Assembly (NCBI RefSeq): GCF_026151205.1
Contig: NC_087074.1
Coordinates: forward strand, 14,568,667 to 14,632,666
Source: Bolinopsis microptera
Taxonomy: Eukaryota; Ctenophora; Tentaculata; Lobata; Bolinopsidae
Direction: 5' to 3'
Length of the DNA: 64,000 nt
The position numbers were made by a program, and so were the translations under genes. Below, piece after piece: positions 9,389-35,839 of this stretch; the first letter of the stretch is position 1, and every line of letters begins with the position of its first letter. The notes below the pieces were generated by a model. That model searched no databases. It saw only the letters and a list, made by a program, of their open reading frames with translations, and was not told where the DNA came from.

Positions 9389-9400
9389 GTGGTATTTAAT

Positions 9401-9528
9401 AAAGTGACGTCACGTCTGGTATAAGTGCGTCACGTCTGGTTAAGTGACGTCACGTCTGGTATGAATTGACGTCACGTCCTGGTATTAAGTGACGTCACGT
9501 CTGGTTATTAAGTGACTCACGAGAACTG
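9401..9528 (+). repeat. Minisatellite of CRE-like sites
   Basis: Five to six copies of a ~22-26-bp unit, TAAGTGACGTCACGTCTGGT. Four copies hold the full palindrome TGACGTCA, the consensus for CREB/ATF-type bZIP factors. It lies just 5' of the minus-strand exon candidate ending at 9388. Regulatory use is inference. Confidence 0.8.
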
Positions 9529-11007
9529 AGAGAAATGAATCTCAATCAGTGTGAATTTTTGTGATAGCACACCTCCGCAATCAATGTAATACAAGGTGGT
9601 CCTATATTATTGGATTTACGGTATAAAAACACGACAGTGAAGCAGAGACTCCCCTGACAATAATTCTATATGCCATTATATTTTATACTATCGATTTGTG
9701 CTGTTTAGAGTCAGTATATAAACGAGTCAAACAGCATACAAACAGATTAATCAGCCAGACTTAAGATTCGTATCTAAAGATTCTAAGAACTGGTTGTTAC
9801 TTTCACCCAGCTCGGTTTCAGTCCTAGTGCATTCTGGTGGAGTGTTTATAGCTAATCAAACAATCCATCAGAAATATCGTTTTTATATCAATTTAACCCA
9901 AGCACGTACCAACTCAATAACAGATCAATTTGGGATCATATAACCTTTGGTCCCAAAACATGACTTATAAGCTGTAAACAAGCCCGACCGGAACCAATGT
10001 CCACTGTACTTTAATCTATAACACCTGCCTCCTGGTCCAATGAGCTGGGCATATAAGTAACTGCTAGAACAAAGTCCTCTTCATTAACAAACTATACAAT
10101 CGTTCTTGTTGATCAGGATTTTCTGTCCCAATTCGGTATAAAGTCTCCTATGTTACCGGTGTTATTATGCCAGCAACCTGACATTACTAAGGTAAGTAAC
10201 ATTTTTCACAACGATAAACCCCCTTTTGAGTCTTGGTATTTCGTTTAAATTTGATAAGCGACAATCATTCTATTATGAAAAATTGAATATGTATCTTGAT
10301 TCAAAGTCATTTCAAAACTAGAGATTAGGGTTAAAATGATAATGTAAGATCTTACTAATACCTTCGTGTTGCAGAGTGCAGTAAGTACGCTATGAAAACG
10401 ATAACCAAGCTTCATGGTAAACGCTGAACATTCTTACCTGGAATAGACAAAAACTTTTTGATTGATGTTTAATGATCTCAGAGGACTTTGAAGACGTTCA
10501 ACCGAAATTAAGAAAATTTCGTATGCAGAGCCAGACACTAGAAATAGAATACCCTTTATGATCTTTTTCTTCGACATCTTTCACTGTGAATAAAGTTCGT
10601 TACTATGTACTAACCATTAACGCTGTTCAAATATGAGAGCGAGCCAAGGAAACTCCGCTGAATCCTGCCACTGATAGACGATAAAAGTTTACTAAAAGGA
10701 CCGATTGATCTAGCGTGTCATTAGCGCCCATCACCTTGCTCGATCCAGGTAAAGCATTCACCATTTTTGAAGCTGTAGTCTTTTATTCTACAGAATGCAT
10801 AAAATATCACGGCGCCTAACGAACATTTCATTGTTCGAGATAACTAATGCTCGATCTAGGTCTTGTGTGAGAAGAATCAGTTCCTCGTCTTCTAGTGCTG
10901 CAGATTTGAATATTTATCGAGAGAATCGGGTCTCGTCTTCTAGTGCTGCAGATTTGAATATTTATTGTTACTAGAAAACCGCCGAGAGCTTTGTAGTACA
11001 CGGCATG
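9529..11007. other. Non-coding stretch left of the 4-kb array
   Basis: No secure exon. A direct repeat, TCTAGTGCTGCAGATTTGAA, occurs twice (about 10893 and 10940) just before the array begins. The expected downstream part of GFM1 is not here. Confidence 0.4.
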
Positions 11008-13122
11008 TAATAAAGATGGCAGAATCGTGAATGGCAGCTAACTTACTTATAGGCCATTTGTATGAGATCAAGTTAGTCATGCTCGGCATTAAACTTATAA
11101 GCATTGCCCAACATACCTAAGAATCTAAGATAAAGAGTCGGAGTTATTTCTTACGATGAACAAAGTTGGTGTGATTATTACTGATCAAGAAACAATGAAA
11201 ACTACTCGTTACTTTATAATTTGGTCCAAAAAAGGTTTATTGACACTCCATAAAGAAATAAAAAACGGTAACAACTCATATTCCATTATCTATCATGTAT
11301 AAAACAACATAAAAACCGTTCTTTACAATAATAGACCGGATCTAATTAAACAACATTACAGCTCAATCGTAGTATTGTAAAACTTCTATTTTAATTTTGG
11401 TCTATTGGAAAAAATTTGTTTAGTTTTTACAACTACGAATATAATACTATAATAACTTATCGTATCAAATAAATAAATTAGACAGAACTCAATTAATACA
11501 TTTCCAGAATGGAGGGAAAATTAACCCGATTTTTAGATCAATAACAACTACGTTACCAAATATTTCAAAACTGACAAATCTATTACAATTATTGATTAAT
11601 ATCATTATGTAATGGAGGGAAGCGTTTTAACCAGGTGTAGCTAGTCCACATCCCCTAGCTCTATAATAAGAAGTAAAATGTTTCAATTCTAACTGAAAAG
11701 CTCAAATATAATAAATCACAATCTATTATAGAAATTAGGGATTCACCGACATGATGAAGAACCAGTTCTGGAGTAGCCCGAATCAATGCCACCACAGGAT
11801 CGGTTAACTATATAAGACTCCCAGACAATGTCCAAAGCAAATCGGTATCACGGGTGATGTGTTGTTTCACTAATAACAGTTTTCACTTCAAAGTATCATA
11901 TCAATCTTTGTCAAAATTCAACTTATTATAGATTTAATCAAAAAGTTTTATACCAAAATGCGGTTCTTAGGCGCATGCAATGTTAGACAGTTACTTGATT
12001 TATAACTTAATTACAGCATACGGAAATATTTACCCTTCTGTTAAGGCAAACGCAGAAAGCAGATAGATCTTCTAAATTTAATTTATACTGTTCTAATGAT
12101 TTTCACAACTTTTAATTCTTTAAAGAAATTGACATAACCCGTGGTATGCGCTGGCAATACCAATTACTTACAAGAACTGTTATTACGATTGCAAGTAACA
12201 AACTAATAAAGTTAAACCATAGAAATTTAACGCATTTTAAGTTTATCAATTAAACGACTACAAACTGTGCTATCTTGTGTCCCTTTCCACTATTTACTGA
12301 AATTTTTGCCACCGCTAACTAAAAAAAGCACCTCTCTCTTCAGATCATAGCATACTGAATGTCCTGACTGATCTTGAGGCTAGTTTTTCTGAAGTTACGT
12401 TGAGTTTGGGACACGAGTCAGGAGCCATGTAAAACTCCTGGTGAGGAGAGTATCTTAGATCTGTAAAGCTAGGTTATGTTCTGTAGTTCCCACCGATAAT
12501 CCGGGGAGCATACACGCACTGTCCCTATCGAGTCTACATGATCTCCTTACAACCTTGTACCAGATTTCACTCGATAAGTCTGACCCGCCTCACTTGACAA
12601 ACCAGGATCTTGAGGCGGGTGTTCACCACACACCATGAAATGAACTGTTCCTCACGTGACTTGCGGTCAGTTTCACAGAGTAGCCAGCCCTTTGCAGTGT
12701 CTGTGGAGAAGATTGCCAGGTTCTCTCCACTTCAACATCGAGGCATGCCGTATTCTTTTATCTCTCCTGAGAAGAAAAGAATATCGATATGTTTTCTTCC
12801 TTTTATTGTATTTGTAAAACAAAACGTGTTACACAAATTAATGGTGCTTCTGATTGGTTGTCAGTAGAATTACTTACCGATACTGTGACTAGATCAGTAC
12901 TCTGCGTATGGCCAGTGTAGTCCCTGAGGCAAAGTCGAGTAAACCAGCAGCTGGTTTAAGCAACAGTCCAATGAGACCCTTTAGCCTAGTCCGGTCACTG
13001 CCCCGTTCACCCGGTCTTGGTTAAACCCTCTCACATATAGAACTGGGAAATGCTGTAAGCCCTCCGATAAAGTTCCACTTTCTTAACCCCTGCCATCCTG
13101 CACTCAGACAGTACACTTGAAC
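11008..13122 (-). repeat. 4-kb tandem array, leftmost partial unit
   Basis: Similarity to the other units starts near 11008 (TAAAGATGGCAG) and runs to the GFM1/VPS13 junction at 13122. It contains only the VPS13-derived 3' exons and their downstream AT-rich flank. Confidence 0.85.
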
Positions 13123-14150
13123 CATCCAAAACCCTCAGAGCTCGCTCCACTTCAACTGTGAAGTCTATGTGTCCGGGGTGCCTAATCAGGGTTCAACTGG
13201 TTACCTGGGAAAAAAATGGAATTTCCACAATTTATTCATACTCTTGATTATTTCAAAATTAAAAAGATGAAAAATGTATTTAACAAGTTGGAATACTACA
13301 TAGCATCCAGTTAATCAAAACTTAACTCGTTTCAACCTCCCAACCTTTCCACAGCAGAGATGTAGCAGCAGAATTAATTGGTGATTCCTCGCTGCTTCTC
13401 CGTGTCCATAACTGTCCATCTTAGGCTCCTACACCGTCCCTTACCTGAACAAACATGTCTTAAACGAACCGACCTCTTTAAATTGGGAAAATTTTGACGG
13501 TAGTTTATTGTTAGTAAGAATATATACGACGGACATTAATTGACCTAATAAATAGCAAATGATCGTGAACCAGAAACAACAAGTTACCACAAACCTTTGA
13601 CATCGTAATAGCGTCTATTTCTCCGCCGTAGAAGGTAATTCGTTCTGGACAACCGTTGTCTTGCCGGAGTCAATATGTGGCTGACTTTCCTGACGAAGTT
13701 AGTATAAGTATCTATGACAAAACAGTCATACTTTAAACAGATTTACCCGGATTTATTATTCATTTTTTCAAATACGATGCTTAGAGCTTGTGAGCTAGCT
13801 TTTGACCTCCGGCGAAATCTCGGCCAACTCAATCATCTTTTAAATCGAATTTGAATAAAATGTTTCAAAAATCCAACAAACCAATATTTCCGATGTTTTC
13901 TTCCTACTTTAGTAAACGCAGGGTTTGAAGACATTTGATTCTGAAAGACGGCGGAATGGGAGACGTCTGGTATAGTTTTTCATCTCGTACCTCGAAAACA
14001 CTAATTTTGAAAATTAGAAATATTCAGAAAATGTGTTATTGGACTGGTTTGGGGAGCGGCTAGGGCGCTTTAATAATTCTTGCCCATCTTCACCGCTGCC
14101 CCGGTCCCCCGAGACTTCATCTTTACTTTCGTCTGTTTCACTCTCTGTTT
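12315..14150 (-). pseudogene. GFM1::VPS13 chimeric gene, copy 1
   Basis: Reading right to left: an acidic exon candidate (~14150-14030, ..TGAAADDGQELLKRP..); an exon with ATG at 13836 ending ..KPNELIKSG (13836-13747); the EF-G G1 exon with AHIDSGKT and RILFYAGRID (13689-13595); the G2 exon with DGVGAKMDSMELEKQ and RGITI (13444-13345); and the G3 exon with [16 protein letters not shown] (13204-13123). The signature is that of mitochondrial EF-G1, a ribosomal translocase. At RVLDG, where GFM1 should go on to the rest of its G domain, the frame passes without an intron into a VPS13 segment (SLRAGWQGLRSG..KPAAGLLDFASG), then a GTAAGT intron and the PH-like exon (RLPRCC..SREEQFISW..LVSSERV). G4, G5 and EF-G domains II-V are absent, so no working GTPase can result. 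Indels break the frame here; whether these are sequencing noise or decay is undecided. Confidence 0.7.
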
Positions 14151-17100
14151 CAATCATCAGGTACTAGCTATGTAACATGATAATCGAGCTGAGCTAAAGT
14201 TTCAACGTAACAACGATTCGAGTATGGTTACAGACAAACCAAAAACCCCCACGCAGCAAACGCTCTAACCATTTGAACAACAACCATTGCACTGCCAACT
14301 GTACACGGTCCTCACACACTTCTTAAACCAAGTACTTTTATACCCACATAGTTGAACGGAACATTTACTTTGGCGTAAGGCTGCCCTGCAAGCGATAACT
14401 GATGACCTAGCTCCTCATATAAGGCGTGTAATTTAGGGTGCAAATATCGACGTGCTAGATGCAGCAAGCTAAGAGATACCCTGCAAGTGATTACACCGGA
14501 GCTAGCTCAACAGTCCCCCTGTTAATTATGACTTATCTGGCCCCGTAATACCTTGCAAAATCACGTGCTAATCCGCCACTAAGCGCGCTCAATCGCTATC
14601 TCGTGACTCTCACGTGACAGCTATCAAGAAATTTCCCTATATGCGCTCCGTTGAAAACTAGGCAAGAGCTAGTTTTGAGCATTAACTCGGCAGGACAATT
14701 CTCAATCTGTAGTTTAATCTGAATAGTTAACGACTCAAACAGTCGACGATGGAACAGATATTTTGCGAGCTTTCTCTACGAGAAATAGCACGCTTCACAA
14801 ATTCTGGCGAACCTTCCTTTAAAGGAGGACCCACAGAAAGTTACATCAGGAATTATAGTATGGATTAAGTTTAACAATAAAGTAAAATTTATGACTGGAC
14901 AAGCCTTGCGGCAATCACTCAATGTGAGACTCATATTTCAAATTGTCCAGGATTCATATCAATAGAAAAGGACCATTTTGTAAATGAAACCCATAGTGTC
15001 AACATATTAGAACCATTCCAATTTCCGTGATCTCATTCAACACAAGAAATAAGTTAAATTAATCCGCCATTGTGCTAGAGCCTATCCTGTAAGACTGTTG
15101 TAAAGATTGTGGGCAGATCGTAGAATGGCAAGCAATCTTAATTATATGCCATTGTATGATATCATGTTACTCATTCTCGCATAAACTTATAACAGTGCCC
15201 AACAACCTAAGAATCTAAGATAAAGAGCTCTGGAGTTAATTTCTTACGATGAACGAAAAGTTTTGGTTTTGATAAAAAAAAAAAAATATTACTGTTGAAG
15301 AAACAATGAAAACAACTCGTACTTTAATATTTTGTTTCCAAAAAAGTTTATGACACTCCATAAAGATATAAATAAACGTAACAACTCAATAATTATTATC
15401 ATCTGTAGAAAACAACATAAAAACCGTTCTTACAATAAAGACGTGATCTAAATTTAAACTACAGTTACAGCTCTATCGTAGTAAATGTAAAACTTCTATT
15501 TAATTTGTTTCTTCTGGAAAAAAATTTGTTTAGTTTTACAACTTACAATATAAATATACTATAGAAATCTTATCAGTCTCAAATAAATAATTAGACATAA
15601 TCAATTAATACATTTCCAGAATGAGGGGAAAAATTGAACCGATTTTATATCAATAACAACACGATTACCATTAATTACAAAACAACAAATCTGTTACATT
15701 ATTGAGTATATCATTATGTAATGGTATGGAATCTTTTAACCAGGTGTAGCTAGTCCACAGCCCTAGCCCTATAATACAAGAAATTGTTTCAATTCTAGCT
15801 GAAAAAGCCCCCTGTCCTAATAAAAATAAAAAATAAATCACAATCTATTTATAGAAATTAGGAATTCCCCGACATGATGAAGAACCAAGTCTGATGAGCC
15901 CATATCAGATCCACCCACAGGATCGGTTACTATATAAGGACCTCCAACCAATGTCAAAGCAAATCGGTATCACGGGTGAGGTGTTTTTTCACTAATAACA
16001 GTTTCACTCAGTATCATATCAATATGTCAAAATTCAACTTATATAGATTTAATCAAAATTTTATACAAAATGCTGGTCTAGCGCTATGCAATGTAGACAG
16101 TTACTTGATTTAACTTATTTACAGCATAGTCTGCAAATAATTTACCTTCTGTAAGCAAACCAGAAAAATAGGATTTCTAAATTTAATTTATACAGTCTAA
16201 TGGATTTACCACAACTTTTAATTCTTTAGAAGAAAATTGACATAACCGTGTATTGCGCGGCAATACCAATTATTACAAGACATGTTTAAAAGATTGCATG
16301 TAACAAACTAATAAAGTAAACCATAGAATTTAACCCATTAATTTATCAATTAAACGACTACAAAACTGTGCTATCTTGTGTCCTTCCACTATTACTGAAA
16401 GTTTTGCCACGCTAACTAAAAAAAGCAGCCTCTCTCTTCAGATCAATAGCATTCTGAATGTCCCTGACTGATCTTGAGGCTAGTTTTCTGAGAGTTACAG
16501 TTAGTTTGGACACGAGTCAGGAGCCTGGTTAAAAACACCTGTGAGGCAGATGTATCGTAGATTGTATAGCTAGTTTATGTTCTGTAGTCCACCGTTATTC
16601 CGGGGACATACACACACTGTCCTATCGAGTCTAACATGATCTCCTTTACAACCTTGTACCAAATTCTCTCCTCGATAAGTCTGTCCCTCTCACTGGACAC
16701 CAGGATCTTGAGGACGGGTGGTTCACTAACACATCAGGAAATGAACTGTTCCTCACGTGACTGCGGTTGAGTTTCCACAGAGTAGCCATGCCTTGTGAAG
16801 TGTCTGTGGAGAAGGAATTGCCAGGATCTCTCCACTGGCAACATCGAGCAGCCGTAATTCTTTTTATCCTCTGAGAAGAAGAAGAATACCGTTTATATGT
16901 TTCCTTCCGTTTATTGTAATTGTAAACAAAACGTGTTAACCCAAAATTAAGGTTATAACTGTTTGGTTGCTGAGAAGAAATTAACTTACCGATACTGTGA
17001 CTAGATCGAGTACTCTTGCGTTATTGCCAGTGTAGTCCTCTGAGCAAAGTCGAGTAAACAGCAGCTGGTTGAGCACAGTTCCAATGAGACCTTATCTAGT

Positions 17101-17226
17101 CCGGTCCACTGCCCCGTCACTCCGTCTTGGGTTAATCCCTCTCCTATAGAACTGGAATGCTTGTAAGCCCTCCATAAGTCCACTTCATAACCCCTGCCAT
17201 CCCTGCTCTCAGACTTACACTTGATA
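13123..17226 (-). repeat. 4-kb tandem array, unit 2
   Basis: Full unit of ~4.10 kb. Read on the minus strand from its right edge it runs: VPS13 3' exons, AT-rich flank, a region with CACGTG E-boxes and TATGGCGCCTCC, then the GFM1 5' exons ending at the left junction. Numerous one-base indels relative to its neighbours. Confidence 0.9.
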
Positions 17227-18224
17227 CCATCCAAAACCCACAGACTCGCTCCACTTTCAACTGTGAATCCTATGTGGTCCCCGGGGTGTCTATCAGGTAA
17301 ATTTATTCATACTCCTTGATTTAAATATTCAAAATTAAAAAGAGGAAAAATGTATTTGATTTTAACAAGTTGGATACTACAGACATCCCAGTTAATCAGA
17401 ACTTAACTCGTTTCACCACCAACCTTTCCAAAGAGAGATGTACACAGATTTAATGTTGATTCTCGCTGCTCTCCAGTTCATAACTGTCCATCTTAGCTCC
17501 TACACGTCCTTACCTGATACCAAACATTTCTCTTAAACCTAACCGACTCTGTAAAGGGAAAATTTTGAAGGTAGTTATTGTTAGTAAGAATATATACGAC
17601 GGTCATTAATTGACCTAATAAATAGCAAATGATCGTGAACCGAACAACAAGTTACCACAAACCTGACATCGTGAATAGCGTCTATTCTCCCCGCCCCGTA
17701 GAAGGTAATTCGTTCTGACACCGTGGTCTTGCGGAGTTCAATATGTGCTTGACATTCCTGACAGATAGTTTAGTTCATAAGGTAATCTAGTGACAAAACA
17801 GTTCATACTTTAAACAGTTTAACCGGAATTTTATTTAATTCAATTGGTTTCAAAATAGATGGCTTAGAGCTGTGATCTAAGCTTTTTGAACTCGGCGAAA
17901 TCTCGGCAACGGTCAATCATCTTTATATCGAATTTGAATAAAATGTTCAAAAACCAACAAACCATATTCCTGATGTTTTCTACTTTAGTATCGTCAGGTT
18001 GAAGACTTGATTCTGAAGACGGCGGATTTGGTGAGCGTCTGTAAGTTTCATCTGTACCATGAAAAACACTAAAATTTTGAAATTAGAAATTTTCAGAAAA
18101 TGTGTTATTGGACTGGTTTTGGGGAGCGCCTAGGCGGTTTAATATTCTTGGCCCATCATCGAGACCGCTGCCCCGGGCCCCGAGACTTCCATCTTTACTT
18201 TCGTCATTTTTCCACTATCTGTTC
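16412..18224 (-). pseudogene. GFM1::VPS13 chimeric gene, copy 2
   Basis: Same exon order as copy 1, with the fusion point at about 17226. The G3 exon lies at about 17227-17300, the G2 exon near 17430-17520, and the G1 exon near 17665-17760 (the SGKTTV coding stretch has indels). The open stretch at 17234-17001 on the minus strand is the VPS13 part read partly out of frame. More indels than copy 4. Confidence 0.6.
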
Positions 18225-21200
18225 AATTCATCAAGTTACTAGCTAGTAACATGATAATCGAGCTGAGCTACATTTTCAACGTAACAACGATTTCGAGATG
18301 ATTTCATACAAACCCACGCTCTAACCATTTGAACAACAACCCAGTGCACAGCAACTGTACACGGTCCTCACACAATTTCATTAAACCAAAGTTACTTTTA
18401 TACCCACATAGTTGACGAACCATTGACTTGAGCGTACGGCTGCCCTGCAAGCGATAACTGAAGACCTAGCTCCTCCTAAAGGCGTGTAATTATGTGTGCA
18501 ATATCAAGTGCTAGATGCAGCAAGCAAGAATACCCTGCAAGCTTCACCGAGAGCTAGCTCAACATCCCCCTGTTAATTATGAATTATATGGCCCGCGTAA
18601 TTCCTGTGCAAATATCACGTGCTATATGCCGCCACTAAGGCGCGCTCAATCGCTATCTCGTGACTCTCACGTGAACAGCTATCAAAAGGAAATTCCACTA
18701 TATGGCGCCTCCGTGTAAACAGGAAAGAGCTTAGTTTGACATTAACTAGCAGGACAATTCTCAAATCTGTAGGTTTATCGATTACGTTTAACGACTCAAA
18801 CAGTCGACGATGGAACAGAATAAATTTGCGAGCATTTTCTCCTACGAGAATAGCCACCGCTTCACATATTCTGGCGGAACCTTCTTTTAAAGGAGGACTC
18901 CAAAGAAAGATACATCAGAATTATAGTATGGTTTAAGTTACTAATAAGTAAAATTTATGATCTGACAAAGCCTTGCGGCCATCACTCATGTGAGACTCAT
19001 ATTTCAAATTGTCAGGTTTCATATTTCAATAAAGAAGGAACCATTTGTTAATGAAACCCATAGTGGTCAAAATTTAGAACCATTCCCAATTTTCCGTGTT
19101 CTCATGCCACTCAAGAAATAATTAATTAATCGCCATTGTGCTAGAGCAAATCCGTTAGACCTGTTGTAAAGATGCAGATCGTGAATGGCAAGCTATCTTA
19201 CGTATAGGCCATGTATGATATCATGTTTAGATCATGCTCGCAATAAACTTATAAGCATTGCCAACATACCTAAGAATCTAAGATAAGAGCTCTGATTTAT
19301 TTCTGACGATGAGACAAAAGTTTGTTTGATATTACTGATTAAGAAACAATGAAAACTAACTCGTTACTTTATATTTGTGTCCAAAAAGGTTTAATGACAC
19401 TCCATAAAGATATAAATAACGGTAGCCCCCGCAACTCATATTTATTATCTATCTGAGAAAACAACATAAAAACCGTCTTTACAATATTAGACCGTGATCT
19501 AATTTTAACTCAGTTACAGCTCTATTCGGTAGTATTGTAAAAACTTTCTATTTTAATTTGGTTCTTTTGGAAAATTTGTTTATTTTTACACTAACGAATA
19601 TAATAGACTTTAGAAATCTATCGTATCAAATAAATAATTAGACATACCACATATTAATTCATTTCAGAAGCGGGAAAATGAACGATTTTAGATCAATAAC
19701 AACACGATTACCAATTAATTACAAAACTACAAATCTGTACATTTATGAGTATTATCAATTAAGTAATGGAATGGAAACTTTTAACCAGGTGTACAATCCA
19801 CAGTCCGAGCCCTATACTACGAAGAAATTGTTTCATTCTAGCTGAAATCCTACATATTAATAAATCCACAATCTAATAAGAAATTGGGGATTCACCGACA
19901 TGATGAAGAACCAAGTTCTGATTAATCCCATATCAGATGCCACCACAGGAATTCGATACTAATAGAAGACACCAGACAATGTCAAAGCAAATCGGAATCA
20001 CGGGTGAGGTTTGTTTTCACTAATAACAGTTTTTCACTCATATCATATCAATATTGTCAAAATTTTTAACTATTATAGATTTATTTTAATTTAACAAAAA
20101 GCTGTCATAGCGCATGCAATTTAGACAGTAACTATGATTTAACTTATTTACAGATATCTGTCAAATAATTTACCCTTCTGTAAGCAAACCATAAAGCGAT
20201 AGTCTTCTAAATTTAATTTATACTGTTCTAATGAAATTTTAGAACTTTTAGTTCTTTGCTTTAGAAGAATATTGACATAACCGTTTATTGCGCTGGCAAT
20301 ACCAATTAATTACAAGAACACGTTTTAAGATTGATGAAAGTTAAACCATAGAATTTTAAACCATTTAATTTATCAATTAAACGACTACAAAAATGTTCTA
20401 TCTTGTGTCCCTTCCACTATTACTAAAAGTTGCCACCGCTAACAAAATAGCACCTCTCTCTTCAGATCAATAGCATACTGAATGTCCTGGCAGATCTTGA
20501 GGCTGGTTGTCTGAGAGTTACAGATTAGTTGGGACAAGAGTCAGGAGCCATATTAAAAACACCTGGCGGAGCAGAGTATCGTAGATCTGTAATACTAGGT
20601 TATGTTCTGTAGTTCCACCGTGATTCCGGGATCAATACACACCTGTCCTATCGAATCTAATATGAACTCCTTCACAACCTGTTACCAGATACTCTCTCTA
20701 TAAGTCGGACCCTCTCACTGGACACATGATCTTGAGCGGGTGTTCACCACACACCAGGAAATGAACTTTCCTCACGTGGACTTGCGGTTCAGTTTCCACA
20801 TGAGTAGCCATGCATTGTGCTGTGTCTATGGAGAAGATTGCAGGATCCTCTCCATGAACCATCGAGGCAGCCGTATTCTTTTTATCTCTCCTGAGAAAAG
20901 AATAATATCGTTATGTTTCTTCTTGTTTATTGTAATTGTAACACAAAACGTGTTAACACCAAATTATGGTTATACTGTTAGGTTTGCCTGAGTAGAAATA
21001 CACTTATCGATACTTTGACTAATCGAGTACTCTGCGTAATGGCCAGTTAGTCCCCAGAGGCAAAGTCGAAGTAAACCAGCAGCTGGTTGCAACAGTTTCC
21101 AATGAGGACCTTTAGCTATCCGGTCACTGCCCCCTCACTCCGTCTTGGTTAATCCCTCACTATAGAACTGGGAATGCTTGTTAAGCCCTCCGATAAGTCC

Positions 21201-21244
21201 ACTTACTTAACCCTGCCATCCTGCTCTCAGCTAGCACTATGAAC
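17227..21244 (-). repeat. 4-kb tandem array, unit 3
   Basis: Full unit of ~4.02 kb with the same internal order as unit 2. Small C-rich inserts interrupt otherwise matching sequence, for example near 19424. Confidence 0.9.
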
Positions 21245-22262
21245 CATCCAAACCTCAGAGCTCGCTCCACTTCAACTTGAAGTCTATGTGTCCTGGGGTG
21301 TCTATCAGGTTCTACTGGTTTACCTGTTGAAAAAAATGGAATTTCACAATTTTTTCATACTCTTGATTTATTTCAAATTAAAGAGGAAAAATTATTTTAA
21401 CAAGTTGGATACAACAGAGCATCCCAGTTAATCAGAACTAACTCGTTCACACCAACCTTTCACAGCAAGATGTAGCAGCAGATTTAATGGTGATTCTCGC
21501 TGCTTCTCAGTCCTACTGTCCATCTTAGCTCCTACAACGTCCTTACCTGATACAAACATTCATTAAACCAAACCGACTCTGTAAATTGGGAAATTTTGAC
21601 GGTAGTTATTGATAGTAAGAATATATACGACGGTCATAATTGACCAATAATAATGCAAATGATCCGTGAACAGAACAAAACAAGTTACCACAAACCTTGA
21701 CATCGTGAATAGCGTTATTCTCCCGCGTAGAAGAGAATTCGATCTGACACCGTGGTCTTGCCGAATCAATATGTGCTGACCATTCCTGAACAGATAGTTT
21801 AGTTTTAATGAAGGTAATCTAGTGCAAAAACAGTCAACTTTAAACAGATTTACCCAGATTTTATAATTCATTTGGTTTCAAATAGATGGGCTTAGAGCTG
21901 TGAGCTAACTTTTGAACTCCGGCGAATCTCGGCCAACACAATCATCTTTATATCGAATTTGAATAAATGTTTCAAAAATCCAACAAACCAATATTCCTGG
22001 ATGTTTTTCTACTTTATAATCGTCAGGGTTGGGGAAGACTTGACTCGAAGACGCGGAATGTGGTGAGCGTCTGGTATAGTTTCATCTAGTACCTCGAAAC
22101 ACTAAATTTTTGAAAATTAGAAATTTTTCAGAAAAAGATTTATTGGACTTGTATTTGGGGATCGGCCTTAGGGCGCTTTAATATTCTTGCCCAAGCATCA
22201 GCCGCTGCCCCGCTGGTCCCCGAGACTTCATCTTTACTTTCGTCTGGTTTTCCACTCTCTGT
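20439..22262 (-). pseudogene. GFM1::VPS13 chimeric gene, copy 3
   Basis: Same order; fusion point near 21244. G1, G2 and G3 exons are recognisable at about 21690-21790, 21450-21550 and 21245-21325. VPS13 parts are at about 21000-21244 and 20440-20900. Confidence 0.6.
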
Positions 22263-25212
22263 CAATCATCAAGTTTTACTAGCTAGGTATCATGATAATC
22301 GAGCTGAGCTACGAGTTTTCAACGTAACAACGATTTCGAGATGGTTCAGACAAACCCACGCTCTAACCATTTGAACAACAAAACCAGTGCACTGCCAACT
22401 GTACACGGTCCTCACACACTATCATTAAACTAAGTTACATTATACCCACATAGTTGACGGAACATTTTCTTTGCGTAACGGCTGCCCTGGCAAGCGATAA
22501 ACTGATTACCTAGCTTCCTCCCATAAAGCGTGTATTAGGTTTGGCAAATATCACGTGCTATATGCCGCCACTAAGCGCGCTCAATCGCTATCCGTGACTC
22601 TCACGTGACAGCTATCAAAGGAAATTCCTATATGGCGCCTCCGGTGTTAAACTAGGAAGAGCTAGTTTGAAGCATAAAGTAGCAGGACAATTCTCAATCT
22701 GTAGTTTTAATCTGATTACTTTAACGACCTCAAACAGTCGACGATGAACAGATAAATATGCGAGCATTTTTCTCCTACGAGAAAGCAAGCTTCAAAATTC
22801 TGGGCGAACCTTCCTTTAAGGGAGACTCCAATGAAAGGTACATCAGAATTTATAGAATGGGATTAAGTTACAATATAGTAAAATTTAAGAATCTGACAAA
22901 GCCTTGCGGCAAATCACTCAATGTGAGACTCATATTTTCAAATTGTCCAGAATCCATATGTCTATAGAAGAAGGAACCATTTGTAAAGAAACCATAGTGT
23001 CAACAATTAGAAACCATTCCAATTTCCCGTGTTCCTCCATTCAACTCAAGAAAATAGTAATTAATCGCCATTGGGCTAGAGCCACCTGTAGACTGTTTGT
23101 AAAGATGGCAGATCGTGAATGGCCAGCTATCTTACTTACAGGCCATTGTATGATATTTATGTTATTCAGGCTGCAAATAAACTTATAAGCATTGCCCACA
23201 TACCTAAGAAACTAAAATAAAGAGCTTCTGAGTTTTTTCTACATGAAACGAAAAGGTTTTTGGGTTTGATTCAGCTTACTAATTAACGGAGAATCTACTC
23301 ATATAGAAACAGCCCTCGTTACTTTATAATTTGTGTCCAAAAAAGGTATTGACACTCCTAAAGATATATAAACGGTAACAACTCTATTTATTAACTATCT
23401 GTAGAAACAACTAAAAACCGTCTTTACAATAAAGACCGTGATCTAATTTAAACTACAGTTACAGCTCAATCGTAGTATTGTAAAACTTTTATTTTAATTT
23501 GGTTCTTTTTGAAAAAATGTGTTTTAGTTTTACAACTTACGAATATAATTGACTATAGAAATCTTATCCGGTAATCAAATAAATAATTAGACAGACACAA
23601 TTAATACATTCCAGAAATGAGGGGAATATTGAACCGATTTTTAAATCATACCTACACGATTACCAATTAATTACAAACTACAAATCATTACATTTTTGAG
23701 TATTATCAATTATGTAATGGATGAAACTTTTTAACCAGGTGTAAGCTATCCACACCCTAGCCCTATAATACGAAGGAAAAATTGTTTCAATTCTACTGAA
23801 ATCTCTAATATAATAAATCACAATCTATTAATAGAAATTGGGGATTCACGACATGATGAAGAAACAAGTCTGATGTAGCCATATCAGATGCACCACAGGA
23901 TCGGTTACTATAGAAGACTCAGACCATGGTCAAAGCAAATCGTTATCACGGGGTGAGGTGTTGTTTCACTGAATAACAGTTTTCACTCAGTATCAAATCA
24001 ATATGTCAAAATTTACACTTATTATATATTTTAATTTTAATTTATACAAAAAGCTGTCATAGCGCAATTCAATGTTAGACAGTTACTTGATTTAACTTAT
24101 TTACAGGATAGTCGCAAAATTGTACCTTCTGTAAGCAAACCAGAAAGCAGATAGATCTTCTAAATTTTAATTTATAACTGTTCTAATGAATTTTAGAACT
24201 TTTAGTTCTTGCTTTAGAAAAGGAAAAAAAAAAATGACATAAACGTGTATTGCGCTGGCAATACCAATTAATTACAAGAACACGTTTTTAAGATTGATGA
24301 GTTAAAACCATATGAATTTTAACCATTAATTTTTATCAATTATCGACTACAAACGTGCTATCTTGTGTCCTTCCACTATTACAAGAAAGTTATGCCAACC
24401 GCTAACTAAAAAAGCAGCCTCTCTCTTCAGATCATAGCATACTGAATGTCCTGCTTGATCTTGAGGCTGTTTTTCCTGAATATACAGTGAGTTTGGACAA
24501 GAGTCCAGAGCCATACTAAAACACCTGCGGATGCAGAGAACGTAGAATCTGTATAGCTGAGGTTATGTTCTGTAGTCCAGCCGTTATTTCCGGGGAGCAT
24601 ACACAAACACTGTCCCTATCAGTCGTAATATGATCTCTCACAACACTTGTTACCTGATTCTCTCTCGATAATTCTGACCCGCTCACCTGACACCGGATCT
24701 TGTGAGGGTGTTTCACCACACACCAGGAAATGAACTGTTCCTCACGTGACTTGCGGTTCAGTTTCCTCAGAGTAGCCATGCCTTGTGCTGTGTCTATGAG
24801 AAGATTGCCAGGATCTCTCCACTGCAACATCGAGGCAGCCGTATTCTTTTTTATCCTCCTGAGAAGAAGAAGGATTAATCGTTATGTTTCTTCTTGTTTA
24901 TTGTAATTTGTAAAACAAAACTGTAACACCAAATTATGGTTATACAGTGGGTTGCTGAGTAGAAATACACATACCGATACTGTGACTAGATCGAGTACGC
25001 CCTGCTTAATGGCCAGTGTAGTCCCTGAGGCAAAGTCGAATAAACCAGCAGCTGGTTTAAGCAAACAGTGCAATGAGACCTTTAGCTATCCGGTCACTGC
25101 CCCGTCACTCCCGTCTTGGTTAATCCCTCCACTAAGAACAGGGAATGCTGGAAGCCCTCCGATAAGTCCACTTCTTAACCCTGCCATCCTGCTCACAGAC
25201 ATGCACTTGAAC
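21245..25212 (-). repeat. 4-kb tandem array, unit 4
   Basis: Full unit of ~3.97 kb with the same order. Its VPS13 part is among the cleanest; the PH-like coding segment near 24780-24700 stays open for much of its length. Confidence 0.9.
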
Positions 25213-26236
25213 GATCCAAAACCCTCAGAGCTCGCTCCACTTTCAACTGTGAGTCTATGTGTCCGGGGGTGTCTATCAGGTTCAACGGTTACCTGTGAAA
25301 AAAATGGAATTTCACAATTTAATCATACTCTTGATTTATTTCAAAATTTAAAAAGAGGAAAAATTTATTTAACAAGTGTGATACTACAGAAGCATCCCAG
25401 TTAATCATAACTTAACTCGTTTCACCACCAACCTTTTCCACAGCAGAGATGTAGCAGCAGAAATTAATGGTGATTCCCGCTGCTGTCTCCAGTTCCATAC
25501 TGTCCAACTTAGCTCCTACACCGTCACTTACCTGATACAAACAATTCTTAACCTAGCAGACTCTGTAAATTGGAAATTTTTTACGGTAGTTATTGTTAGT
25601 AAAAATATTATACTCAAAGTAATTGACCTAATAATAGCAAATGATCGTGAGACCGGAGAACAACAGTTACCACAAACCTTTGACATGTGAATAGCGTCTA
25701 TTCTCCGCCTAGATGAGAATTCGTTCTGACCGTGGTCATGCCGGAGTCCAATATGTGCTTACATCCTGACAGATTGTTTAAGTTAATAAGGTAAACAAGT
25801 GACAAAAACAGTCATACTTTAACATATTACTCCGATTTTTTATTAATTCATTTGGTTTCAAAATAGATGGCTTTAAGAGCGGTGAGCTAAGCTTTTGAGA
25901 CTCCGGCGAAATCTCGGCCAACTCAATCTCTTTATATCGATTTTGAATAAAATTTTCAAAAATCCTACAAACCAATATTCATGATGTTTGTCTACTTTAT
26001 ATCGTCAGGTTGATGACTTGATTCAGAACGGAGATGTGGTGAGGTCTGTATAGTTTCATCTAGTACCCTCGAAAACACTAAATTTTTGAAAATTAGAAAT
26101 TTTCAGAAAATGTGTTATTGGACTGGGTTTTGGGGAGCGGCCTAGGCGCTTTTAATAATTCTTGTCCCATCACACCGCTGCCCCGGTCCCCGAAGACTTC
26201 ATCATTACTGACGTCTGGTTTTCCACCTCTCTGTTC
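24402..26236 (-). pseudogene. GFM1::VPS13 chimeric gene, copy 4
   Basis: Same order; fusion point near 25212. The VPS13 segment before the intron reads LLKPAAGLFDFASGTTLAI almost cleanly (25073 downward), and the next exon keeps AQGMATL..KLNRKSREEQFISW. The upstream exon with ..AEISPE..KPSILKPNELIK is readable at about 25930-25830. It is one of the best copies for deriving a consensus. Confidence 0.65.
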
Positions 26237-29197
26237 AACAACAAGTTACTAGCTAGGTAACAGAAAATCGATCTGAGCTACAGTTTCAACGTAACAACGA
26301 TTTCGAGGATGGGTTCAGACAAACCCACGCTCTTACCATTTGAACAACAAACCAGTGCACTGCCAACTGTACACGGTCCGTCACACACCTTTCATTAAAC
26401 CAAAGTTACTTTTATACCCACATAGTTACGGAACATTTACATGTGCGTAGGCTGCCCTGCAAGCGATAAACGAGACCTAGCTCCTCCCATATAAGGCGTG
26501 TAATTAGGTGTGCAAATATCACGTGCTATAGGCCGCCCACTAACGCGCTCAATCGCATCTCGTGACTCTCACGTGACAGCTATCAAAGTAATTCCCTATA
26601 TGGCGCCTCCGGTGTAAACTAGGAAAGAGCTAGTTTGAGCATTAGTAGGCCAGGACAATTCACAAATCTGTAGTTTATTCTGCTTACGTTAACGACCAAA
26701 CATTTCGACGATGGGAACAGATAAATTTGCGAGCATTTTCTCCTTCGAGAATAGCACGCTTCAAATATTATGGCTAACCTCCTTTAAAGAAGGACTCCAA
26801 TGAAATTTACATCAGGAATTATAGTAATGGGATTAAGTTTACAATAAAGTAAAATTTAATAATCTGACAAAGCCTTGCGGCCAATCACTCATATGTGAGA
26901 CTCATATTTCAATTGTCCAGGATTCATAATTCAATAAAAGAAGAACCATTTTGTTTAAAGAAACCCATAGTGGCAACATTTAGAACCATTTCCAATTTCC
27001 GTTTTCTCATTCAACTCCAAGAAATAAGTTAATTAATCGCCATTGGTGCTAGAGCTATCCTGTAGACTGTTGTAAAGAGGCAGATCGTGAAGGCAGCTTA
27101 TCTGTACTTTACAGCCATTGTATTATATTATGTTTATTCATGCTCGCAAATAAACTATATAGCATTGCCCAACATACTAAGAATCTAAAATAAAGACTCT
27201 GGAGTTAATCTTACGAAGAGACGTAAAAGTTTGGTTTGATTGATTACTAATTAAGAAACAATGAAAACTACCGTTACTTTATATTTGTTGGCCAAAAAAG
27301 GTTTATTGACACCCATAAAGATATAAATAAACGATAACAACTCATATTTTATTATCTATCTGTAGCAAACAACATAAAAACCGTTCTTTACAATAATAGA
27401 CCGTGATCTAATTTTAAACTACAGATACAGCTCTATCGTAGTATTGTATAACTTTAATTTAATTTGGTTCTTTGGAAAAAATGTGTTTTAGTTTTACAAC
27501 TTAACGAATATAATAGACTATAAGATATCTTATCGGTATCAAATAAATAATTATACAGACCAATAATACATTTCCAGAATGAGGGGAAAATTGAACCGAT
27601 TTTTTTAGAACAATAACAACACGATTACCAATAATAACAAAACTACAAAATCTATTACATTTATTATTATTATCAATTATGTATGGGATGGAACTTTTTC
27701 AAACCTGTGTAGCTAGTCCACACCCTAGCCCTATAATACGAATAAAATGTGTTCAATTCTAGCTGAAAAGCCTAATAAAATAAATCACAAATCCCCCTTA
27801 AATTTTTTTTATTTAAATTAAAAAAGAAAAAAAATTAGGAATTCACACGACATGTATGAAGAACCAAGTCTGATGTAGCCATATCATATGCCACACAGGA
27901 CGGTTACTATAGAAAGACTCCAGACAATGTCAAAAGCAAATCGTTATCACGGGTGAGGTGTTGTTTTTCACTAATAACACTTACACTCATATCATATAAA
28001 TATTGTCAAAATTTAACTTATTATGATTTAATTTTTAATTTTATCCAAAAAGCAGGTCAAATCGCATTCAATGTTAGACAGTTACTTGATTTAACTTATT
28101 TACAAGGATAGTCGGCAAAATATTTTTACCCTTCTGTAAGCAAACCAGAAAGCAGATAGATCTTCTAAATGTAATTATACTGTTCTAATGAATTTTAGAA
28201 CTTTTATTCTTTGCTTTAGTATAAAAGTTGACATTAACCGTGGTATTGCGCCTGGCAATACCAAATAATTACAGAACACGTTTTTTAGATTGATGAAGTT
28301 AAACCATAGGAATTTTAACATTATAAATTTTATCAATTAAACGACGACAAAACTGTGCTATCTTGTGCCCTTCACTAGTAATAAAAGTTTTTGCCACCGC
28401 TAACTAAAAAAGCAGCCTCTCTCTTCAGATCAAAATCATACTGAATGTCCTGGCAGATCTTGAGCTGTTTTCTGAGAGTTACAGTTGAGTTGGGACAAGA
28501 GTCAGGACCATATTAAAAACACCTGCGGAGGCAGAGTATCGTAGATCGTATAGCTAGGTATGTCGTAGTTCCACCGTTTATCCGGGGAGCATACACAACA
28601 CTGTCCTATCGGTCTAATATGATCTTCCTTCACAACCTGTACCAATTCTCTCTCGATAAGTCTTACCCGCTCACTGGACACCAGGATCTTGAGCGTGTGT
28701 TCACCACACACCAGGAAAGAACTGACCCACGTTGACTTGCGGTTCAGTTTCCACAGAGGTAGCCATGCCTTGTGCGTGTCTATGGAGAATATTGCCAGGA
28801 TCTCTCCACTGCAACACAGGCAGCCCGTATTCTTTTATCCTCCTGAGAAGAAGAAGAAATCGTTATGTTTCTTCTTGTTTTTATTGTAATTGTAAAACAA
28901 AACGTGTTAACACCAAATTATGGTTATACTGTTTTGGTTTGCTGAGTAGAAATACACTTAACCGATACTGTGACTAGACGAGATACTCTGCGTAAGGCCA
29001 GAGTAGTCCGTGAGGCAAAGGTCGAGTAAACCCAGCAGCTGGTTTAGCAACATCCCAATGAGACCTTTAGCTATCCGGTCACTGCCCCGTCACTCCGTCT
29101 TGGTTAATCCTCTCCACTATAGAACTGGGAGCTGTAAGCCCTCCGATAAGTCCACTTCTTAACCCCTGCCACCCTGCTCTCAGACTTGCACTTGAAC
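25213..29197 (-). repeat. 4-kb tandem array, unit 5
   Basis: Full unit of ~3.99 kb. An A/T homopolymer insert at about 27790-27835 is absent from the other units and looks like a local consensus failure. Confidence 0.9.
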
Positions 29198-30242
29198 CAT
29201 CCAAAACCCACAGAGCTCGCTCCACTTCATCTGTAAGTCTATGTGTCCGGGGGTGTTTTTTTATTAAATTATTTTTTTTTATTTTGTTTTTACTATCAGG
29301 TTCAACTGGTACCTTGAAAAAAAGGAATTTCACAATTATTCCATACTCTTGATTTATTTTCAAATTTAAAAGAATGAAAAATGTATTTAACAAGTTGGAT
29401 ACTACAGAGCTATCCCAGTTTAATCAGAACTTAACACGTTTCACCACCAACCTTTCCACAGCAGAGATGTATCAGGCAGCTTTAATGGTGAGTCCTCGCT
29501 GCATCTCACCGTTCCATACTGTCCATCTTAGCCCTACCCGTCCTTACCTGATACAAACAATTTCTTAAACATAACCGACTCTTAAATTGGGAAAATTTTG
29601 ACGGTAGTTATTGTTAGTAAAATATTTACACGGTCATTAATTGACCTAATAATAGAAATCATACATCGTGACCAGAACAACAAGTTTCCACAAACCTTTG
29701 ACATCGTGAATAGCGTCTTCTCCACGACGTAGAAGAGAATACGTTCTGACACCGTGGTCTTGCGAGTCAATATGTCTGACATTTCCTGACAGATATTTAG
29801 TTAATAAGGTAATCTAGTGACAAAAACAGTCAATACTTTTAAACAGATTTACCCGATTTTATTAATTCATTGGTTTTCAAAAATAGATGCTTAGAGCTGA
29901 GCAAGTTTGAACTCCGCTAAATCTCGGCCAACTCAATCATCTTATACGAATTTGAATAAAAAGTTTCAAAATCCAACAAACCAATATTCCTGAATGTTTT
30001 CTAACTTTAGTTTCGTCCAGGGTTGAAGACTTGATTCTGAAGACGGCGGATGTGGTATCGTATGTATAGTTTCAATCTAGTACCTCGAAAACTCTAAATT
30101 TTGAAAATTAGAAATTTTCAGAAATGTGTTATAGGACGGTTTTGGGGAGCGCCTAGGGCGCTCTAATAATTCTTGCCCCATCATCAGCCGCTGCCCCGGT
30201 CCCCGAACTTCATCTTTACTTTCGTCTGGTTTTCCACTCTCG
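28400..30242 (-). pseudogene. GFM1::VPS13 chimeric gene, copy 5
   Basis: Same order; fusion point near 29197. Here a single open stretch crosses the junction: EVERALWVLDG (GFM1 side) continues directly into SSASLRAGWQGLRSGLIGGL (VPS13 side). This is the clearest direct evidence that the join is in frame. The G1 exon, containing TVSERILFY, lies at about 29775-29690. The region 5' of this copy is replaced by the G-rich block at 30337-30508. Confidence 0.7.
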
Positions 30243-33200
30243 TCAAATCATCAGTTACACTAGGTAACATGATAATCGAGCTGAGCTACAGTTTTTCACC
30301 GTAACAACGATTTCGAGATGGTTCAGACAAAAAATAAGAGGGGGGGGGGGGGGTAGATGGGGAGGGGGGATGGGGGGGGGGGGGGTGTGGGGGGTGGGGG
30401 GTTGGGAAAGGGGGGGGGGTGGAGTGAAAGGTGGGGGGGGGGGGGGGGGGGGGGGGGGGAGGGGATAGCAGGGGGAAAGGGGGGGGAGATTATGGGGGGT
30501 GGGGGGGTAACGTCCTCTAACACACTTTCAATTAATCCAAAGTTACTTTTATACCCACTTAGTTGACGGAACATTTACTTTGTGCTACAGGCTGCCCTGC
30601 CTAGCATAAACTGATGACCCTAGCTCCTCCCATATAAAGGCGTGTAATTAGTGTGCAAATCACTGCTATAGTGCCGCCACTAATCGCGCTCAATTGCAAT
30701 CTCGTGACTCTCGACGATGACAGTCTATCAAAGGAAATTCCCTATATTGCGCCTCCGTGTAAGGACAGAAGGAAAGAGCTAGTTAAGAGCCATTAAATAG
30801 CAGTACCAATTCTCAATCTGTAGTTTTTTAATCTATTAGTTAGACGACTGCCAAACAGTCGACGAAGGAACAGATAAGTTGCGATGCATATTCTCCTACG
30901 AGAATAGCACGGCAACAAATATTCTGGCTGAACCTTCCTATAAAGAGGAGCACCAAAGAAAGTTACATCAGAAAAGTGTAAGGGAGTTAAGTGTACAATA
31001 AAGTAAAAATTTATGAATCTAGACAAAGCCCTTGCGCCAATCACAGTCAATGTGGAACACAAATTTGAAAAATTGTCCAGATTCATATGTCAATAGAAGA
31101 AGAACCAATTGTAAATGAAACCCATAGTTGTCAACAATTAGAACCATTCCAATTTCCGTTTTATCATCAACTCAAGAAATAAGTTAATTAATCGCATTGG
31201 TGCTAGATGCCTATCCGTAGACTTTGTAAAGATGGCAGATCGTGAATGGCAGGCTATCTTACTTACAGGCCATTGTAAGATATTATGTAATTCATGCTCG
31301 CAATAACTTATAAGCATTTGCCCAAACTTATTTTTTAAACAAATACCTAAAGAATCTAAATAAAAGAGCTCAGGAGTTATTTCTTAACGATGAGACGAAA
31401 AGTTTGTTTGATATTACTAATTAAGAAACAATGAAAACTAAACTCGTTAACGTTATATTTGTGTCCAAAAAGGTTATTGACACGCCATAAAGATATAAAA
31501 TACACGGTAACACTCATATTAATTATCTATCTGTAGAAAAAACATAAAAAACCGTTCTTTACAATAATAGACCGTGATCAACTTTAAACTTACAGTTACA
31601 GCTCTTAACCGTAGATTGTAAAACTTTTATTTTAATTTGGTTCTTTTGGAAAAAATGTGTTTAGTTTTACAACTTACGAAATATAATAGACTATAGAAAT
31701 CTTATCGTATCAGATAAATTAATTAGACAGACTCAATTAATACTTTTCCAGAATGAGGGGAACATGAACCGATTTAGATCAATAACAACACGATATACCA
31801 ATTAATAAAAAACTAACAAATCTATACATTTATTTGATTAAATCAATTATGTAATGGGATTGAAAACTTTTAACCCAGGTGTTGCAGTCACAGCCCTAGC
31901 TCTATAATACGAAGAAATTGTTCGATTCTAAGCTGAAAAGCCTCTAAACTAATAAATCCCAATTAATATAGAAAATAGGAATTCACCGACATGAATGAAG
32001 AACCAAGCGATTAGTAGCCCATATCAGATCCACCACATGATCGGTTACTATATAAGACTCCAGACAATGTCAAAGCAAATCGGTATCACGGGGTGAGTTT
32101 TGTTTTCACTAATAACAGTTTTCACTCAGTATCCTTATCAATATGTCATAATTCCAACTTATTATAGATTTAATTTAAAGTTATACAAAATTGCTGGTCC
32201 TTAGCGCATGCAATTATAGACAGTTACTTGACTTAACTTATTTACAGGATATCGGCAAATAACTTACCCTATCTGTAAGCGAAACCAGAAAGCAGATAGA
32301 TCTTCTAAATTTAAATTTAATACTGTTCAAATGGATGTCACAACTTTTAATTCTTTATAAGAAAATTGACATAACCGTGTGATGCGCTGCAATACCATTT
32401 TAATTACAAGAACATGTATTTTAAGATTGCATGTAACAAACTAAAAAGATTAAACCAAGAACTTTAACCAATAAATTTATCAATAAACGACTACAAAACA
32501 GTGCTACTGTGTCCCTTCCACTATACTGAAAGTTTTTGGCCACCGCTAACTAAAAAAGCAGCCTCTCACTTCAGATCAAAACATACTGAATGTCCTGAAT
32601 ATCTTGAGCTAGATTTTCTAGAGTTACAGTTGAGTTTGGGACAAGAGTCAGGAGCCATAATAAAAACACCTGGTGGAGGCAGATATCGTAGGATTCTGTA
32701 TAGCTATTTATGTTCTGTAGTTCCACCGTTTTATTCCGGGGAGCAAACACACACTGTCCTATCGAGTCTAACATAAACTCCTTCACAACCTTGATACCAG
32801 ATTCTCTCTCGAAAATCTGACCCCTCACAGACACCAGGATCTTGAGGCGGGTGTTCACCACACACCAGAGAAATGAACTGTTCCTCCCACTTGACTTGCG
32901 GTCAGGTTTCACACAGAGTAGCCATGCCTTTTTTCTGTGTCTGTGAGGAAGATTGCCAGGATCTCTCCACTGCAACATCGAGGCAGCCGTAAGCTTTTTA
33001 ATCTCTCCCTGAGAAGAAGAAGAAAATCGTTATGTTTCTTCCGATTATTGTAATTGTAAAACAAAACGTGTTAACACCAAAATTATGGTTAGACCTGTTT
33101 GTTGCTGAGTAGAAATAAGCTTAACCGATACTGTGACTAGATCGAGTCTGCTGCGTAATGGCCATTGTAAGTCCCTGAGGCAAAGTCGAGTAAACCATCA

Positions 33201-33361
33201 GCTGGTTTAGCAACAGTCCACTGAGACCTTTAGCTAGCCGGTCCACGCCCCGTCACTCCGTCTTGGTTAATCCCTCTCACTAAGAACTGGGAATGCTTGG
33301 TAAGCCCTCGATAATCCACTTCTTAACCCCTGCCATCCTGGCTCTCAGACTTGCACTTGAA
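29198..33361 (-). repeat. 4-kb tandem array, unit 6 (rightmost)
   Basis: Full unit of ~4.16 kb. It includes a G-rich block (30337-30508) in place of normal unit sequence and a T-rich insert just left of its edge at about 29257-29298. Its right edge, near 33361, is where GFM1 sequence would start but native VPS13 intron sequence appears instead. Confidence 0.9.
30337..30508. repeat. G-rich low-complexity block inside the array
   Basis: About 170 bp of G runs with scattered A and T replaces the ~80 bp present at this point in the other units (between TTCAGACAAA and a CACACT..TTAA.CCAAAGTTAC segment). No other copy has it. It is most likely an unresolved read or consensus artefact. The Gly- and Pro-rich open frames on the two strands are spurious. 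Confidence 0.8.
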
Positions 33362-33926
33362 CTCTGGTATCAGTCGGAGAAATGGAAATTTGGTTGCTTC
33401 CACAATCGACTGCATTAATAAAAAATAAATATGATACAAAAAGGAATTGGAAAGAAAAAAAGTAAGAAAAGAGATCGCATCAAATAGGAAAGAGCACACG
33501 AAAGAGAAAGAGACGCACAAGAAAAACAAAAGATAAAAAGTCTCCTACCTGGAAGCACTAAGTCTGTCCTCTGTCCGGCCTCTGGAAAGCAATCATCTCC
33601 ACTAACATACGTTAAACACAGAACTAGCATTGAACTGAGTTACTGGCGGTATCTGACATGCCGTGAGCAACACTCTTTACCATTCCTGACACGTCCCATC
33701 CAGCCCCACTGAGAGACCACTCGCTGTAATCGTTAACAGCATTCCTATTTTACCTGTGTCATGTGAGGGGAAAGGTTGTTTAAAGTTTACGTTATCATGG
33801 TAAGTAACTAGTAGAAACAATGAAATATGAGGTAAAAGTGATGAAATCACGAAGAAGGTAAAGTGTCAAACCTGTCATTTCTGAGTTGAGTGACTATTTT
33901 TGAGTTTATGTCCAACTGCGCAGTCC
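32546..33926 (-). CDS. VPS13 family protein, 3' end of the native gene (partial)
   Basis: VPS13 proteins are large bridge-like lipid-transfer proteins at membrane contact sites; this is the extreme C-terminal part. Exons on the minus strand: 33926-33872 (..TAQLDINSKIVTQLRND); 33744-33549 (..YSEWSLSGAGWDVSGMV.. to ..GQRTDLVLPG, with two apparent indels); about 33365-33126 (SASLRAGWQGLRSGLIGG.., KPAAGLLDFASG); and 33008-32546 (RLPRCC.., SREEQFISW, LVSSERV, the PH-like end). Phases match across 33872/33744. The exon start near 33361 works if one extra base there is an error. The glycine-rich amphipathic repeat followed by KP.AG..DFASG is the usual VPS13 C-terminal signature. VPS13D-like is my guess; the paralogue cannot be fixed by eye. 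More exons probably continue to about 34430 (an open minus-strand segment at 34420-34300). Frames are broken by indels in places. Confidence 0.65.
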
Positions 33927-35737: not shown

Positions 35738-35839
35738 ACTATCTTAGATATAGGGCAGTCGAGTTTTCTTCTTCTTTCTTTCAACGTTGGACAGCACTCG
35801 TGCATATCGAATTTTTGGCAGTCCTCGAAAATTAGTGCC

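Follow-up and report, generated by a model that had tools for sequence, protein, structure and literature searches.

The array of joined gene fragments in this part of the Bolinopsis microptera genome raises two questions: does it lie where the assembly puts it, and are its units new fusion genes? The window (the whole 64,000-nucleotide stretch analysed, C3:14,568,667-14,632,666 in a genome of 264.65 Mb and 232 contigs) was said in a preliminary description, made from the letters only, to carry five copies of a gene in which the beginning of the mitochondrial translation GTPase GFM1 is joined in frame to the end of the lipid-transfer protein VPS13. In our reading, which we regard as highly probable, the window contains a misplaced raw-read gap fill, while a real chimeric array lies at C3:18.9 Mb and its units are probably pseudogenes.

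A noisy array and its polished counterpart

Comparison of the window with itself bore out the five full direct units and one partial unit (11011-33362, main alignments 81.4-84.9% pairwise). The noisy stretch as a whole (Table 1) extends beyond the array limits first stated for the window and is collinear, in BLAST alignment, with a second region of the same chromosome. Positions 7501-30331 of the window correspond to R 8380-31221 (91%, with 757 mismatches and 1329 gap positions) and positions 30512-34481 to R 31274-35193 (90%), where R 1 is C3:18,897,000 in the reference stretch around the polished array. This polished array (C3:18,908,893-18,931,085, about 4.3 million bases from the window copy) consists of five units of 3.97-4.10 kb, 97.5-99.4% identical, followed by terminal VPS13 exons.

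Outside a burst of poly-C the window copy differs from the polished one by 3.4% insertions, 3.3% deletions and 2.3% substitutions, about 9% overall, and its error is almost the same in coding exons (8.9%) and in the non-exon parts of the units (9.3%). Most differences among the six window units are confined to one unit, with 1564 singletons among the 2436 variable columns. The excess of indels over substitutions appears only when gaps are made cheap or in the BLAST alignment: in the first six-unit alignment substitutions outnumbered indels in five of six units, and after realignment with cheap gaps indels accounted for roughly two thirds of the differences or more. Indel-rich error spread nearly equally over exons and non-exons, with a polished original elsewhere, is what we took as the mark of a raw-read gap fill, and it is what was found here.

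The polished VPS13 parts are separated by 57 diagnostic columns, of which 50-56 are readable per noisy unit. Each noisy copy best matches the polished unit in its own position (50/52, 55/56, 53/56, 49/52 and 48/50 for units 1 to 5, 50/53 for the terminal copy), with the qualification that a single diagnostic site separates the nearly identical units 4 and 5. Unit-specific sites kept in order, together with the noise, point to one raw read of that array, unlike an old duplication. We give almost no credence to the alternative that the loci at C3:14.58 and C3:18.91 Mb are both genuine arrays, of which the one in the window has diverged. Both are indeed present in the assembly with flanks, but the difference of 9% is indel-rich, nearly equal in exons and non-exons and accompanied by the poly-C burst, and true divergence would not spare diagnostic sites while unit-specific variants stay in order.

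Table 1. Positions of the described features in the window
Feature	Position	Strand	Remarks
Uncorrected long-read sequence, judged a misplaced gap fill	7501..34481	.	collinear with C3:18,905,379-18,932,192
Left flank of array (noisy)	7501..11010	-	polished flank from R 9941 (~window 9060) to array equals downstream flank of C11 VPS13 copies
Unit 1 (noisy)	11011..15100	-	VPS13 part 11011-13120; GFM1 piece ~13121-13939; dispersed repeat ~14003-14864
Unit 2 (noisy)	15101..19166	-	VPS13 part 15101-17224; GFM1 piece ~17226-18011; polished counterpart without exon-4 acceptor (33-base deletion)
Unit 3 (noisy)	19167..23099	-	GFM1 piece ~21243-22044; polished counterpart with exon-4 donor GT->AT
Unit 4 (noisy)	23100..27072	-	GFM1 piece ~25211-26022
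Unit 5 (noisy)	27073..31226	-	GFM1 piece ~29196-30035
Poly-C burst, ~170 bases, in unit 5	~30341..30510	-	missing from polished copy; resembles raw-read noise
Terminal VPS13 exons, own introns and upstream exons before them	31227..34481	-	noisy copy of VPS13D-like 3' end
Probable left anchor repeat of fill	6682..6982	.	97% identical to true-locus repeat; offset 880
Possible right anchor repeat of fill, 668 bases	42442..43109	.	92.7% identical; offset 720

It is known that long-read gap filling can fail in this way, an unpolished read becoming lodged between contigs through repeat anchors, and the window resembles such misplaced fills in both respects. On the left side the anchor repeat has an offset of 880 and the fill starts at an offset of 879, the intervening 518 bases not being alignable; on the right side the anchor repeat has an offset of 720 and the fill ends at 712. 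That either side has a repeat with almost the offset of the fill points to a mis-anchored gap fill. Further repeat pairs occur at other offsets on both sides, and the agreement could be due to chance, on the right more easily than on the left. The gap filler would have projected the read from repeat anchors near both contig ends, the flanks of the true locus carrying similar repeats. For the B. microptera assembly PMC10232365 names wtdbg, TGS-GapCloser, Purge Haplotigs and pilon, and gives 13 chromosome-scale scaffolds with 97.23% of the assembly and a k-mer genome size near 254 Mb; this recipe presumably applies to the present assembly as well.

The copy in the window is thus most likely one uncorrected read of the array at C3:18.9 Mb, placed here by assembly error. 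This was among the outcomes that the preliminary description had itself named as speaking against it, although the array does exist elsewhere. The case shows how a genuine rearrangement, overlaid by an assembly error, can give a picture that is striking yet wrong; diagnostic sites followed unit by unit, together with anchor offsets, offer a means to separate the two.

Structure and reading frame of the units

All reading frames were decided on the polished copy; those of the noisy window had been mentally corrected in the preliminary description. The consensus translation proposed there as a check gave a divided result, as the majority consensus of the noisy units retains frameshifts, one of them inside the junction exon, while the polished units are in frame. 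Each unit is a 2.1-kb copy of terminal VPS13 exons with their 3' flank, preceded by an insert of 1.87 kb in units 3-5 and of 1.95-1.98 kb, about 100 bases more, in units 1-2. The insert is composed, in this order, of unplaced sequence, a dispersed repeat of about 0.75 kb, a piece of about 62 bases present in the array only, and 0.81 kb of GFM1 exons 1'-4'. In unit 4 the dispersed repeat occupies positions ~238-990 and the GFM1 piece, running from inside exon 1 to inside exon 4, positions 1053-1865. Bases 1-237 (again in unit 4 positions) had no other place in the genome among the best 40 of 122 candidates scored, and a 78-base query with the piece of about 62 bases found 10 places, all of them in the two copies of the array, and no source outside them.

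The intron-less, in-frame junction that had been described was open in all five polished units. All of them encode [35 protein letters not shown] (or its frame-mate after SSVS), KPAAGLLD, SREEQFISW and LVSSERV, with DTPGHIDF to KPAAGLLD in a single frame, and the junction RVLDG/SSASL or SSVSL is in frame in each. The junction exon [26 protein letters not shown](A or V)SLRAGWQG is likewise open in all five, its 5' edge being deleted in unit 2. At DNA level the junction reads GGATGGT/TCAAGTG as against CAGAGT/TCAAGTG in VPS13, so that GT or T, and at most GT, is in common. A junction in frame is a one-in-three chance, and it creates an open reading frame. In three of the five units (1, 4 and 5) the spliced model keeps all splice sites and stays open through to the VPS13 stop; unit 2 is without the splice acceptor of exon 4 and unit 3 without its donor, through the changes listed in Table 1.

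From VPS13 each unit holds only the last two coding exons, and the N-terminal chorein/RBG bridge is absent. As for the GTPase, the GTP_EFTU profile was covered from 9 to 95 of 188 only, with G1-G3 present and G4 and G5 absent, in agreement with the description of five copies with G1-G3 alone. Also in agreement with it, an intron and upstream exons of its own precede the terminal, right-hand VPS13 exon.

Control by the GFM1 promoter, which had been proposed for these copies, did not hold: the GFM1 piece starts within exon 1, so neither promoter nor initiator is carried, and upstream of it lies other DNA (about 1.05 kb in units 3-5, about 1.17 kb in units 1-2), mostly the dispersed repeat. Between exon 2 and the stop codon upstream of it no in-frame ATG was found in any of the five polished units, which presumes that no spliced exon lies further upstream. 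Exon 2 itself has an array-specific ATG, before SAHIDSGKT, where GFM1 reads GTG. A product started from it would have half a G domain and no targeting peptide. By eye, the dispersed repeat shows a motif resembling a TATA box and a donor-like GTAAR site; no RNA family was found in it at gathering threshold in the three loci searched (L020, L024 and L027).

Parent genes and the history of the array

Both parents still exist, as separate genes on C3, and the loci found agree with GFM1 and VPS13 as first named, the VPS13D end by a weak match. Exons of GFM1 lie at C3:20,375,617-20,376,555, 1.44 Mb from the array, parts of the remainder of the gene can be read in the surrounding region, and no second GFM1 locus was present among 27 matches. 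Among proteins of solved structure, mitochondrial EF-G is closest to the GFM1 part (E 7e-40). The same region (C3:20371000-20380999) contains a 24-base minisatellite reading EPTVNYRL in more than 15 copies.

Domain models gave no VPS13 match for the VPS13 tail itself; a homologue of the tail matched VPS13_C at E 8.5e-4 and the neighbouring parent exon matched Ricin_B_lectin at E 0.0019, both below cut-off. VPS13D is reported to have a ricin-type lectin in its sixth VAB repeat (PMC7613979). The weak lectin match of the parent exon is a likeness to VPS13D, from which the units of the array differ in holding only the two last coding exons and a tail with no VPS13 model match. With a human VPS13D N-terminus for a query, one N-terminal-like exon was found at C3:19,012,663-19,012,851, on the same strand and 80 kb upstream (E 2.6e-4, a weak match), and the VPS13D-like parent spans C3:18.93-19.01 Mb, its N-terminal end resting on this one match. 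A triplicate of the VPS13 3' region on C11, earlier regarded as the parent, was dropped in favour of C3 after this match. Its three close copies (17.333, 17.380 and 20.773 Mb), one of them at 20.78 Mb of a 20.83-Mb contig, are either real or an assembly duplication. Intact copies of a VPS13 exon adjacent to the array lie at C3:18.932, C11:17.339 and C11:20.780 Mb; the copy at C11:17.385-17.387 Mb is split, and the one in the window is broken by four stops.

The left flank of the array is the same as the flank found downstream of the C11 VPS13 copies, which places the array within a VPS13 3' region. The preliminary description had traced the array to neighbouring genes: a tandem duplication running from VPS13 into GFM1 would have left five fusion genes under the GFM1 promoter at the place of the window. 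The in-frame junction of all five polished units and the presence of both parents on one chromosome are in accordance with such an origin, yet we consider it hardly tenable and rejected it: the genes are not neighbours but 1.44 Mb apart, the GFM1 piece begins inside exon 1 with the dispersed repeat upstream, and the left flank belongs to VPS13 and not to GFM1.

Differences between units point to another history. Between units 1-2 and units 3-5 the insert shows 0.21-0.22% substitutions and 117 to 151 gap columns, while the VPS13 part differs by 1.6-2.05%, i.e. 7 to 10 times more in substitutions. Within these groups the figures are 0% for the insert and 0.05-0.5% substitutions for the VPS13 part. 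Since the insert is nearly invariant and the VPS13 part variable, we infer that the insert is young and was multiplied recently, and that the VPS13 parts were probably exchanged with ordinary VPS13D alleles. It could be argued that the polished array is itself an artefact, a concatemer or a loop of the assembler. Head-to-tail inserts with zero substitutions within groups fit this, and the assembly evidently has errors, but the divergence of the VPS13 parts between groups speaks against it, and so does the noisy read, which has the same variants in the same order and both flanks, although it may itself underlie the polished sequence. We find an artefact of this kind very unlikely and take the array to be real DNA of this animal, located at C3:18.909-18.931 Mb where a VPS13D-like gene has its 3' end.

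The pieces were most likely joined once, by template switching during replication or by a small circle of insert and VPS13 integrating by homology, and unequal exchange would then have multiplied the unit. Template switching of the FoSTeS/MMBIR type yields complex duplications with templated insertions, in which distant short pieces are joined with little homology. Short distant pieces and little homology (the GT or T mentioned above) are found here too; the five-fold head-to-tail amplification is a difference, and the mechanism in our case is one we infer from its product. Chimeras of tandem duplicates in Drosophila yakuba reportedly keep introns while their parents remain, and both are seen here. 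According to PMC5460883, they arise by exon shuffling that joins partial gene segments; the array likewise consists of partial gene segments joined by duplication and differs in that these come from two places of the chromosome, with a repeat-bearing insert, a five-fold unit and an expression that is putative. The chimera is a new instance of a known process, displaced in the window and most likely non-functional. We view the true array as a young, sequence-resolved birth of a chimeric gene at the end of a VPS13D-like gene, the clear record of which consists of a nearly invariant insert in each unit and variable VPS13 parts.

Function of the chimera and the dispersed repeat

Lack of the GFM1 promoter, start and targeting peptide, together with loss of splice sites in two of five units, suggests that we are probably dealing with chimeric pseudogenes, or at most with sources of noisy transcripts. 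Of the five fusion genes first proposed, five in-frame joins stand, but only three units keep all splice sites and the upstream in-frame ATG is missing. It has to be considered whether the chimera is instead an expressed and selected gene, its product half of a GTPase domain joined to the membrane-binding tail of VPS13 and acting, for example, as a dominant regulator at mitochondria-ER contacts. The junction exon open in every polished unit, the full splice sites of units 1, 4 and 5 and the array-specific ATG before SAHIDSGKT would suit such a gene, as would the differences between groups in the VPS13 coding part, 10 synonymous to 3 nonsynonymous, a count covering the five units, with the terminal copy and three C11 copies left out. 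However, as the VPS13 part is 7 to 10 times more variable than the insert, this ratio says little about the chimera; exchange with VPS13D alleles, which are themselves constrained, would better explain the pattern as inherited, and selection on the chimera was set aside as its cause. With no upstream ATG, with G4 and G5 missing and with broken splice sites in two units, we consider an expressed, selected gene quite unlikely. A transcribed unit, should there be one, would be a test of whether accidents of this kind can give rise to proteins.

In a protein search no existing chimera was found among the best 120 of 4675 matches (7994 candidates scored); the best of these 120 was VPS13-only with 65% query cover, and the others covered at most 38%. 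A match from another public assembly, perhaps of the same or a close species, has the VPS13 exon with 92% identity over 26% of the query and apparently reads through the native upstream intron. A literature search for GFM1 with VPS13 and fusion or chimera gave a sole match, which by its title concerns yeast models.

The dispersed repeat of about 0.75 kb recurs at many places in the genome, several of which are tandem arrays with other cargo and other unit lengths. We noted it at C8:18452-18463 kb, C7:17869-17880 kb, C11:2607-2612 kb, C13:15294-15306 kb and C3:19894-19904 kb. The C8 array carries the last exon of a transmembrane protein, with no Pfam match, which we take to be NUP210-like, and the C7 array carries antisense C2H2 zinc-finger exons. 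Copies of the repeat have a similar boundary region at the 3' end in several cases, but not one fixed end. The unit could accordingly be looked upon as cargo of a gene-capturing mobile element with the repeat for its body, as the many sites and the arrays with other cargo might suggest. We hold this to be unlikely: among the matches listed, the GFM1-VPS13 unit, and the GFM1 piece beside the repeat, occurred only at C3:18.9 Mb and in the noisy copy, the copies have neither fixed ends nor a fixed orientation to genes, and the VPS13 part of the array matches the resident gene.

It is still more speculative, and in our opinion rather improbable, that the repeat, with its TATA-like and donor-like motifs, is a portable promoter which recurrently enters local head-to-tail arrays with exons of unrelated genes (VPS13/GFM1 on C3, and those on C8 and C7) and so builds and amplifies chimeric genes; this is to be read against a background duplication rate that may be high, with other local duplications in the window too. 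That the repeat recurs in other tandem arrays is nevertheless what could become interesting. Among the local duplications of the window are an inverted repeat with arms of about 1.4 kb (55414-56821 and 57390-58768, 94.9% identical) and direct repeats at 51286-53148 and 59475-61336 (83%). At ~35800-38300 of the window, on the plus strand, lies a candidate gene, receptor-like, with LDLa-type cysteine motifs as judged by eye.
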